A stretch of 64,000 nt of DNA from the NCBI GenBank assembly GCA_030428885.1, contig JAUIEJ010000007.1, positions 62,001 through 126,000 on the forward strand, given 5' to 3'. Origin of the DNA: Gemmatimonadota bacterium (GTDB lineage Bacteria; Gemmatimonadota; Gemmatimonadetes; Longimicrobiales; Gaopeijiaceae). Positions 25,405-28,075 of this stretch are shown here, in pieces. The stretch's first letter is position 1; each line of letters begins with the position of its first letter. The position numbers and the translations under genes were made by a program. A model generated the notes under the pieces. It searched no databases and was not told where the DNA came from. It saw only the letters and a program-made list of their open reading frames with translations.

Positions 25405-26676
25405 TCACCCCCGATGCCACTCGTGGCGATGGATGAGCCGGTTCATGACGCCCTGGGCCGGGCAGGTCGGCGGCTGCCCCGCCGCCGCCTCCAGGTGGCG
25501 GGCCAGTTCCCGGGCCGTGGGATACCGGGCCACCTGCATGAAGCAGAGGGGCTCGCCCGTGGCGCGCTGCAGCGTTCGGCACACCTCCCGAGCCGCCTCG
25601 GGATCTCCCCCCCGGTCGAAGAAGTGGCTGTCGGGCCCCAGGCCCGGCTGGCCCAGGGCGTCCCGGAAGGCGTGGGTGACGGCGTCCACGAGGGCCGCGT
25701 CGCCTCCGCCGGACGCCCCCGGCGACGTCTCCGCGGCCGGGGCAGCGGCCGGCGCCGCGACCGCCGCCGGTGCCCCGGCGAGATGCCGTGCCAGCTCCCG
25801 GATGGTGGCGTAGCGGAAGAGGTCCACCACCGACACGGCGAGTCCCGTCTCCCGGGTCGCCCGCTCGGCCACCCGCAGGGCCGCCAGGGAATCGGCCCCC
25901 GCCTCGAAGACGGGGGTGTCTGGGGCGGGCGCCGGCGCCTCCAGCACCTCGGCCCACGCCGTCGCCAGCACGGCCTCGACTTCCCGGGGCGTCATGGCCG
26001 GGCCGCGGGGGGGCCCGTCCGAGGCCGTTCGGCCCCCGGCGGCCACGCCCAGCTCCCGGGCGGGCACGCCCACCACCGTCACTCCGGGCGCCACCCGGTC
26101 CACCACCGACGAGCCGGCGCCCACGGTGGCCCCCGCCCCCACCACGATCTCGGGCAGCACGGTGGCGTTGGCCCCCACGTACACCCCCTCGCCCAGCTCC
26201 ACCCGGGCGTTGAGCACGGCGTTGGCGGCCACGACGCAGCCCGCACCCACCCGGGACTCGTGCCCCACCACCGCCCCCATGAACACCACCGATCCGGCCC
26301 CCACGTCGATCTCGGGTCCCAACACCGCCCCGGGATACACCAGGACGTCGGAGGCCAGCGTCGCCCCCAGCGTATCGACGCCGGGAGCCACCAGCCCCAC
26401 CCACGGCACCCCGTACGCCCCGATGACCTCCCCGGCCCGGCGGCGCCCCGCCGTGGTCCGGGCCACGAGATTCACCACCCCGTCCACGGCGGGGTCGGCG
26501 TCGGCCAGGGCCGAGAAGGGCCCCACCACCTCCACACCCAGGAGCCGAAGGCCCCGCTTCGCCGGGTCGTCGTCCAGCAACACGATGCGATCCCACGCGG
26601 GTCGCGCCTCGTTCACCCGCAGGGCGAGACGCACCCCCTCGGAGTTCCCGGCCCCGCAGAGATACAGGGTGGCCAT
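25405..26676 (-). CDS. NeuD/PglD-like sugar O-acyltransferase fused to two carrier-protein domains
   Basis: The 423-residue protein has three parts. Residues 1-210 form a NeuD/PglD-type transferase: a Rossmann-like start (LYLCGAGNSEG, VLLDDDPAKRG) followed by left-handed beta-helix repeats with the expected catalytic histidine in VVGHESRVG. Residues about 225-300 form a carrier domain with the phosphopantetheine motif GADSLAAL, Ser263. Residues about 325-400 form a second carrier-like domain in which the motif reads RGGDPEAA; Pro359 replaces the serine, so it cannot be loaded. Known relatives of the first part acetylate amino sugars from acetyl-CoA; a fused carrier suggests the acyl donor is instead tethered. 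The gene follows the radical SAM gene by ten bases in the same operon. Its pathway is unknown. Confidence 0.82.
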   Translation of the reverse strand: MATLYLCGAGNSEGVRLALRVNEARPAWDRIVLLDDDPAKRGLRLLGVEVVGPFSALADADPAVDGVVNLVARTTAGRRRAGEVIGAYGVPWVGLVAPGVDTLGATLASDVLVYPGAVLGPEIDVGAGSVVFMGAVVGHESRVGAGCVVAANAVLNARVELGEGVYVGANATVLPEIVVGAGATVGAGSSVVDRVAPGVTVVGVPARELGVAAGGRTASDGPPRGPAMTPREVEAVLATAWAEVLEAPAPAPDTPVFEAGADSLAALRVAERATRETGLAVSVVDLFRYATIRELARHLAGAPAAVAAPAAAPAAETSPGASGGGDAALVDAVTHAFRDALGQPGLGPDSHFFDRGGDPEAAREVCRTLQRATGEPLCFMQVARYPTARELARHLEAAAGQPPTCPAQGVMNRLIHRHEWHRG

Positions 26677-26686
26677 GGCCCCCTCC

Positions 26687-27610
26687 TCACGCCGTTCCGG
26701 AGGTTTCGGGGCGGAGCCGTTCGGCGGCCCCGGTCATCCAGTCCTGACAGGTGTGGCACCGCTCGGGCAACTCGTCGTATCGGTGGGCCAGGTGCAGATC
26801 GCGATAGCGCCCGAGCTCGCCCCACAGATGGGCGATGGAATGCTCCCACGCGTTGCCCACGCCCTCTTCGTACTCCATGTCGCCGGGGCAGCGGGGCACC
26901 CGCCCGTCCCAGAAGACGTGCATCATGGTGATGGCCCACGGACACGGGATCCGCTCGTCGTCGGGCACGCACAGCGACGTCTGGAACTTGCCGCCCCAGG
27001 AGAGCTGCCGCCGCACCTTCACCACCGCCCCCCGGTCGTGCCAGAAGCGGGTGTAGTCGTCGAGCTCGTGGGCGTTGTAGTCCATCTCGATGAACTGCAC
27101 CTGGATCTCCGGACCCCGGCCCAGGGCCCGTCGCCGCTCCAGGAGTCCCTGGACGTTGGCGTAGACCACGTCCCGGTCCCCGCCGGTGCGAGCCCGCTCG
27201 TACGACGCCGCGGTGAACCCGTCGATGCCGATGACCACGAGGTGCGCCCCCGAGTCCAGGAGCCGGTCGGCCACGTCCCCGGTCAGGAGCATGCCGTTGG
27301 TGTTCACGTTGAGGGACTCCAGCCCCACCTCCCGACCGTAGGCCAGGATCTCGAAGAGCCGGTCGGGCTCCAACAGCGGCTCGCCGCAGAACGAGAACCA
27401 GCACTCCGTGCGGGGAGCCGTGGCGGCGATCTCGTCGGCCATCCGCTTCCAGAGGGCCAGGGGCATCACCCCCTTGAGCCGCTTCATGGTGGGGTGGTAG
27501 CACATGCTGCAGGCCAGGTTGCACTCGGCGCACGTCTCCACGGCGAACTTCTTCGGAAACGCGAAGGGCTGCAGGGTCGCTTCGATGCGGGACAGTTCGG
27601 CGTGGGGCAT
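26687..27610 (-). CDS. Radical SAM enzyme with SPASM-like C-terminus
   Basis: The 307-residue protein has the radical SAM cluster motif Cys30-x3-Cys34-x2-Cys37 (ECNLACSMC), the GEP motif (FSFCGEPLLEPDR) and VNTNGMLL. The C-terminal 90 residues carry further cysteines (IPCPWAITM, RCPGDME, ERCHTCQDW) that fit a SPASM/twitch domain holding one extra Fe-S cluster. Enzymes of this class modify peptides or sugars, or rearrange carbon skeletons, by radical chemistry. It lies four bases after an Rrf2 regulator gene and ten bases before the acyltransferase-carrier gene, so the three form one unit. The substrate may be a carrier-bound group, which is inference only. Confidence 0.85.
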   Translation of the reverse strand: MPHAELSRIEATLQPFAFPKKFAVETCAECNLACSMCYHPTMKRLKGVMPLALWKRMADEIAATAPRTECWFSFCGEPLLEPDRLFEILAYGREVGLESLNVNTNGMLLTGDVADRLLDSGAHLVVIGIDGFTAASYERARTGGDRDVVYANVQGLLERRRALGRGPEIQVQFIEMDYNAHELDDYTRFWHDRGAVVKVRRQLSWGGKFQTSLCVPDDERIPCPWAITMMHVFWDGRVPRCPGDMEYEEGVGNAWEHSIAHLWGELGRYRDLHLAHRYDELPERCHTCQDWMTGAAERLRPETSGTA

Positions 27611-27614
27611 GGGC

Positions 27615-28037
27615 CTATCCGGGTGCGGGGACCCGCTCCATGCGGGCCGCGTCTTCGACGGAGGTCTCCTCCAGGAAGGCGATCCACCGGGCCCGGACAT
27701 CGCGGAACGAGGCGTGGGCCGAGCAGGGAACGTCGTCGGAGCAGACGTCGTGGATGCCCAGGATGCACGAGGGGCGGCTCCGGAATCCCTCGAAGACCTC
27801 CACGGCCTCCACGAGGGCGATCTCCGCCGCCGGACGCGCGAGACGGTATCCACCGCCTCGTCCTCGCACCGCCTGGACCAGGCCCGCTGCCGCCAACGCC
27901 CCGAGCACCTTCGAGAGGTAGTTCGCGGGCACGTCGATGGCTTCCGACAGCGTGCGCCCCGGCAGGTACTCGGGCGCGCGGGTGTCGGCCAGGGCCACCA
28001 GGGCTCGCAGGGCGTATTTCGAGGTCGTGGTCAGCAT
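27615..28037 (-). CDS. Rrf2 family transcriptional regulator with Fe-S cysteines
   Basis: The 140-residue product matches Rrf2 regulators. It has a winged-helix start (TTTSKYALRALVALAD), the recognition region (VPANYLSKVLGALAAAGLV), a wing (GRGGGYRLARP), and three cysteines spaced Cys-x7-Cys-x5-Cys (SCILGIHDVCSDDVPCSAH), as in cluster-binding members such as IscR and NsrR. It therefore probably senses iron-sulfur status, nitric oxide or redox. ATG 28037 is preceded by AAAGG. It is the first gene of the operon with the radical SAM enzyme and likely controls that operon through the AT-rich site just upstream. Confidence 0.9.
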   Translation of the reverse strand: MLTTTSKYALRALVALADTRAPEYLPGRTLSEAIDVPANYLSKVLGALAAAGLVQAVRGRGGGYRLARPAAEIALVEAVEVFEGFRSRPSCILGIHDVCSDDVPCSAHASFRDVRARWIAFLEETSVEDAARMERVPAPG

Positions 28038-28047
28038 ATAGTGGACC

Positions 28048-28075
28048 TTTGCATGTACAAATCCTCTTTGCAAGT
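28048..28075 (-). promoter_or_regulatory. AT-rich promoter/operator candidate of the Rrf2 gene
   Basis: TTTGCATGTACAAA at 28048-28061 is an imperfect palindrome (10 of 14 symmetrical positions), followed by a further TTTGCAA half-site at 28067. It stands out in very GC-rich surroundings and begins 10 bases upstream of the Rrf2 start codon. Rrf2 proteins commonly bind such sites and repress themselves. Confidence 0.4.

Follow-up and report, generated by a model that had tools for sequence, protein, structure and literature searches.

In butirosin biosynthesis, BtrI is the acyl carrier. The aminoacyl side chain is moved onto the aminosugar scaffold by BtrH and BtrG (PMC8430323), and BtrN oxidises 2-deoxy-scyllo-inosamine and holds an auxiliary cluster with four cysteine ligands (PMC9012708). 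For four glycine-activating domains with a monooxygenase insert, the code DILQLGMIWK has been reported, and the insert has been described as cleaving the glycine backbone to give terminal amides (PMC12283262). Here we compare a locus in the window, a 64,000-nucleotide stretch of a Gemmatimonadota genome (5.4 Mb, 23 contigs), with these systems, with the PglD/PerB/VioB acyltransferases and with the radical SAM/SPASM maturases of RiPPs. Domain searches and coordinates confirmed that an Rrf2 gene, a radical SAM/SPASM gene and an acyltransferase–carrier gene lie on the minus strand where an initial annotation had placed them, with the gaps it had given, 4 bases (Rrf2/radical SAM) and 10 bases (radical SAM/acyltransferase):

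27615..28037, minus strand: Rrf2 regulator, accessory; 140 aa; PF02082 at 5e-27; IscR-like Fe-S ligand motif C-x7-C-x5-C-x2-H.
26687..27610, minus strand: radical SAM enzyme with twitch/SPASM domain, BtrN-like, core gene 1; 307 aa; PF04055 at 2e-14 and PF13186 at 4e-6.
26735..26956, minus strand: twitch domain of the radical SAM enzyme; Cys 223, 241, 285 and 288; one auxiliary [4Fe-4S] cluster predicted.
25405..26676, minus strand: acyltransferase–carrier gene, whole; 423 aa; hexapeptide PF00132; PF00550 in two stretches.
26044..26676, minus strand: PglD/PerB-type acyltransferase part, core gene 2; Rossmann-like N-terminal part and left-handed beta-helix; catalytic His139.
25768..25995, minus strand: carrier domain 1, peptidyl carrier type; PF00550; attachment Ser263.
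25477..25707, minus strand: carrier domain 2, apparently degenerate; PF00550; Pro359 at the position of the attachment serine; in this genome only.

The conserved core of this locus is two genes, the radical SAM/twitch gene and the acyltransferase gene, and not three. A radical-enzyme scan over one genome per species (84,980 species) yielded 27 loci, across which the radical enzyme is 60–69% identical, bar one Lachnospiraceae relative at 37%. The cassette occurs in at least seven phyla, with hosts in Gemmatimonadota, Acidobacteriota, Planctomycetota, Myxococcota and Latescibacterota, in Hydrogenophaga and a Pseudomonadales MAG, and in an Acidimicrobiaceae MAG; Hydrogenophaga pseudoflava NBRC 102511 and Sulfidibacter corallicola M133 are among the named hosts. 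Wherever a related locus extends far enough, the acyltransferase gene lies directly downstream of the radical SAM gene, a recurrence that puts the adjacency beyond chance. The spacing runs from −4 to +119 bases and is mostly below 10, the 4-base overlap typical of coupled translation being common, and a value of −73 in L075 is probably a matter of start-codon choice. The surrounding genes differ from locus to locus and appear to be random neighbours; beyond the pair, only a separate carrier-like gene (five loci) and a VOC gene (four loci) were found as recurring neighbours. The protein distances of the two enzymes correlate (r 0.60; 0 of 5000 permutations), a value to which host kinship contributes. 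Few genomes have the pair: it occurs in 3 of 395 from Gemmatimonadota and was not found in congeners of the window genome. Since the radical-enzyme tree intermixes phyla, horizontal spread is likely, and the sequences compared suggest that the pair is likely to be a stand-alone, horizontally spread cassette. A search for a plasmid location gave no match for the cassette at E 1e-40, and plasmid-borne mobility was dropped for this reason.

Sequence comparison places the radical enzyme in the BtrN-like twitch type, with one four-cysteine auxiliary cluster predicted. Across 25 sequences, C30, C34 and C37 of the CxxxCxxC motif are invariant, as are C223 and C241 of the twitch domain, and C285 and C288 are nearly so. 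A profile built from these sequences had BtrN as its top PDB match (3e-16); both halves align, and all four auxiliary-site cysteines coincide with BtrN cysteines in the profile alignment. BtrN is also the best match by fold when compared with the AlphaFold2 model (pLDDT 83.8) in VIA-align (Z 22.2, 2.5 Å over 234 residues; next entry Z 19.2), while Foldseek alone placed DesII first and BtrN fourth. BlsE was also among the matches, together with DesII. BtrN, DesII and BlsE, the last a sugar-acid decarboxylase, all act on free or nucleotide-bound sugars or cyclitols. Because the cassette enzyme is most like BtrN, an aminocyclitol oxidiser, the analogy favours a sugar-like substrate over a carrier-bound group, a common fold being no proof of a common reaction. 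Distant radical SAM relatives (25–37% identity) sit in glycan- or polysaccharide-type clusters. The gene for the Lachnospiraceae relative (37%) lies among genes for a glycosyltransferase, an NAD-dependent epimerase, an ATP-grasp protein and a hexapeptide protein (L099:936-6188).

The resemblance to butirosin biosynthesis extends to its logic, in which BtrN is accompanied by carrier-bound aminoacyl transfer to an aminoglycoside (BtrI, BtrH), and the initial annotation therefore went too far, as regards logic, in seeing no known counterpart. To our knowledge, the cassette acyltransferase–carrier shares no homology with BtrI or BtrH. Unlike in butirosin biosynthesis, both functions here reside in a two-gene, likely mobile cassette, near which no other butirosin genes were seen. 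We found no published description of the assembled cassette in a literature search that had few subscription papers in reach. With the RiPP maturases, the cassette enzyme has in common the radical SAM core and the SPASM-like C-terminus. It differs from them in that its cluster cysteines at 30, 34 and 37 lie too near the N-terminus for a recognition domain in front of them, in having a single four-cysteine auxiliary site, and in the absence of a conserved short peptide within 700 bases: our RiPP precursor search revealed no recurring short ORF up to 700 bases upstream or downstream of the pair. RiPP maturation was rejected on account of the missing peptide and the lack of room for a recognition domain.

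The model and the sequence alignments assign the acyltransferase, by fold and active site, to the nucleotide-amino-sugar N-acyltransferase type. Its model (pLDDT 84.5) matches PglB, PerB, WeeI, VioB and PglD in Foldseek, and PerB (4ea7) was retrieved by HMMER as well. His139 superposes on His141 of PerB, the residue altered in 4eaa and 4eab, and both His139 and Asn156-Ala157-Arg158-Val159 are invariant among the cassette acyltransferases, in which the N-terminal Rossmann-like part is also conserved. The fold, the Rossmann-like N-terminus and the catalytic histidine are thus those of PglD, PerB and VioB (NeuD family, TIGR03570). Unlike these enzymes, the cassette protein stays below the curated TIGR03570 cut-off (112.2 bits vs 160.8) and has a fused peptidyl carrier or an adjoining carrier-like gene. 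The earlier label of NeuD/PglD-like consequently holds in the sense of "NeuD-like", but NeuD proper would be wrong at 112 bits against a cut-off of 161.

A fused peptidyl carrier is present on the acyltransferase in about 20 members, and most cassette acyltransferases end in such a carrier with FFDxGGxS and an arginine-rich tail. All 18 fused carriers examined from other loci have the attachment serine, and so does carrier 1 of the window protein, which reads GADSL with Ser263 at the attachment position, as the initial annotation had it. The second carrier, which the initial annotation had counted alongside it, reads GGDPEAA, with Pro359 where the serine belongs; it is absent from all relatives and unique to the window genome, and is apparently a degenerate duplicate as judged from its sequence. 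Lacking the attachment serine, it leaves carrier 1 as the only one that can be loaded. Two candidate phosphopantetheinyl transferases are encoded in the genome. In five loci (L075, L082, L086, L090 and L092) the acyltransferase has no fused carrier, and the next gene is a separate small one whose product has an invariant serine. The product of this gene gave no Pfam match at 0.01, only weak similarity to DltC/ACP and a weak profile comparison, and we refer to it as "carrier-like" in view of this weak similarity. In four of these five loci, the carrier-like gene is followed by a glyoxalase-like gene (VOC; methylmalonyl-CoA epimerase-like; L090:11971-12387, L075:9057-9479, L082:12036-12440 and L092:7708-8208).

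We searched the cassette genomes whole with the acyltransferase–carrier profile. In seven of eight fused-form genomes, one other carrier stands out, tail included, and it forms the C-terminus of an NRPS of about 1500–1600 residues, of which only a contig-end piece is visible in G432. Among the 88 matching stretches in Sulfidibacter, this NRPS carrier was the best after the cassette (7.5e-20 vs 3.3e-16), and the window protein, too, had a TIGR04020 NRPS carrier as its best further match within its own genome, by a narrow margin. This single-module NRPS opens with a formyltransferase or condensation domain at the N-terminus, continues with an adenylation domain into which a luciferase-like monooxygenase is inserted (TIGR04020), and ends in the carrier. 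When 63 carriers were placed in a tree, 16 of the 17 fused ones fell into a clade (support 0.83) together with 27 NRPS-type carriers and one other. The nearest non-self match was a TIGR04020-type NRPS carrier for 16 of the 17, in a set that held only 17 other carriers. By sequence, the fused carrier therefore belongs to one group with NRPS carriers of the glycine-coded, monooxygenase-interrupted type, and the basic tail is common to NRPSs of this type in genomes without the cassette as well. Carrier and tail are of the same type as in the TIGR04020 glycine NRPS modules and the NRPS is found in the same genomes; unlike these modules, the cassette has no adenylation, condensation or monooxygenase domain. 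In complete cases from cassette genomes, the specificity code reads D-I-L-Q-(mostly M/L)-G-M-(I/V)-W, as derived for the first nine residues by motif rather than structural alignment. Since this code fits the one reported for glycine-activating domains, glycine is the likely substrate of the adenylation domain.

The TIGR04020 NRPS was found in 17 of 20 fused-form genomes and in none of six with the separate-carrier or truncated form; G435, in which the match is cut by a contig end and falls below the cut-off, was counted as positive, and G437, in which the acyltransferase runs off the contig, was excluded. The base rates are 5–9% (18/395 Gemmatimonadota, 25/284 Myxococcota and 20/392 Planctomycetota genomes), compared with 4/5, 4/4 and 6/6 of the cassette genomes in these phyla (Fisher p 2e-5, 6e-5 and 3e-8). 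These figures overstate the evidence, since related hosts of one phylum do not count as independent and no correction was made for genome size, which, like lifestyle, could raise the apparent co-occurrence. What is new here is the kinship of the fused carrier with the glycine NRPS carrier and the co-occurrence of the two systems (17/20). In the window genome, the NRPS (formyltransferase–adenylation(monooxygenase)–carrier, glycine-type code) is encoded on contig C13 of the assembly, minus strand, at L172:12957-17738, with no clustered partner genes. In Hydrogenophaga and in one genome each of Planctomycetota and Myxococcota (L122-L123, L125 and L128-L129), genes for a type I PKS and glycosyltransferases and genes of polysaccharide type lie close to the NRPS, among them a recurring one whose "GHSL(V/I)N" product has no match in Pfam (L122:9768-10712).

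Taken together, the pair and its co-occurrence with the NRPS suggest, on sequence evidence, that a sugar-like molecule is decorated in a way not described before. The explanation that we tentatively prefer, while rating it somewhat short of probable, is a horizontally spread two-gene cassette that combines radical oxidation with acylation from its own carrier, the NRPS being the likely acyl source. Acting on an (amino)sugar or cyclitol, the radical SAM enzyme would oxidise a carbon that bears a hydroxyl or amino group by two electrons, or would carry out an elimination there as DesII does. The acyltransferase would then acylate the amino (or hydroxyl) group, with the phosphopantetheine of its carrier domain rather than acetyl-CoA as the acyl donor. 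Glycine or a unit derived from it would, in most species, be loaded onto this carrier in trans by the adenylation domain of the NRPS. Several observations count against this explanation: no aminotransferase or NDP-sugar gene accompanies the cassette in the loci compared, the cassette and the NRPS were never neighbours in the loci seen, the fused form occurs without a detected NRPS in G424, G079 and G436 (the latter two being drafts), and some genomes have the NRPS but not the cassette, among them G042, which belongs to the same genus. It is more doubtful, yet conceivable, that we are dealing with an undescribed, horizontally transmitted acylation system in full, in which the unlinked glycine adenylation/monooxygenase NRPS serves the built-in carrier in trans as its loading enzyme, the glycine-derived acyl group is moved to a sugar or cyclitol prepared by the BtrN-like enzyme, and the split assembly line is held together by carrier recognition and not by clustering.

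The unlinked arrangement of cassette and NRPS would also be expected if the carrier had merely been copied from an NRPS by fusion, with the hosts simply shared and the cassette relying on a loading enzyme of its own, and the presence of the separate-carrier form in genomes without the TIGR04020 NRPS agrees with such domain shuffling. However, the NRPS is found in 17/20 fused-form genomes, compared with 5–9% of genomes in three phyla, and this, together with a phylum-mixing tree that suggests several independent acquisitions, makes this account quite improbable. A different role for the NRPS-type carrier, with the basic C-terminal tail that it has in common with the NRPS carrier, would be that of an acceptor: the acyltransferase would acylate the amino group of an aminoacyl thioester held on its own carrier, giving a starter unit for an NRPS or PKS. 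In line with this, several genomes have a type I PKS and genes of polysaccharide type next to the NRPS. We consider this improbable, as the cassette proteins retain the N-terminal part with which PglD/PerB enzymes bind the nucleotide sugar, and the window genome, G438 and G439 have the NRPS without a nearby PKS. The initial annotation had instead placed the radical chemistry on a carrier-bound group, in our reading an acyl group such as a glycyl-derived one, the product of which would then be passed by the acyltransferase to a sugar or peptide. A carrier does usually accompany the radical enzyme (fused in about 20 genomes, as a separate carrier-like gene in five), and the twitch domain is compatible with such chemistry; but the sugar and cyclitol substrates of BtrN, the closest solved relative, and of DesII and BlsE, as well as the glycan-type surroundings of the distant relatives, render the proposal doubtful and, in our estimate, unlikely.

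Being small, conserved over at least seven phyla and present in at least two named strains, the cassette is amenable to testing. If the link to the NRPS is true, the parts of one route would be scattered over the genome and recognised via a shared carrier type, cluster-based genome mining would miss such routes, and the cassette would be a candidate partner for the often stand-alone formyltransferase/condensation–glycine adenylation–monooxygenase–carrier NRPS.

Rrf2 is an optional accessory regulator and no constant part of the cassette. Its gene adjoins the cassette in four of about 25 loci (the window, L066, L067 and L085), much more often than chance would give (about 5e-7, taking 0.25% per locus), and each cassette genome holds 1–4 Rrf2 genes. 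All four cassette-adjacent proteins contain the C-x6/7-C-x5-C-x2-H motif; the cut-off of the IscR equivalog TIGR02010 was missed (65.6 bits vs 207.55). Of the trio originally proposed, the radical SAM–acyltransferase–carrier unit did recur elsewhere in our neighbourhood test, but with Rrf2 in so few loci, a conserved trio that includes it is not supported. Iron or redox control, also part of the earlier proposal, would accordingly be confined to some lineages, in which the Fe-S Rrf2 protein may add it. Just upstream of the Rrf2 start in the window, a 10-base direct repeat, CTTTGCA(T/A)GT, occurs at 28047 and 28066 (28047-28075), the two copies being 19 bases apart, and is a possible candidate operator to judge from its position and sequence.
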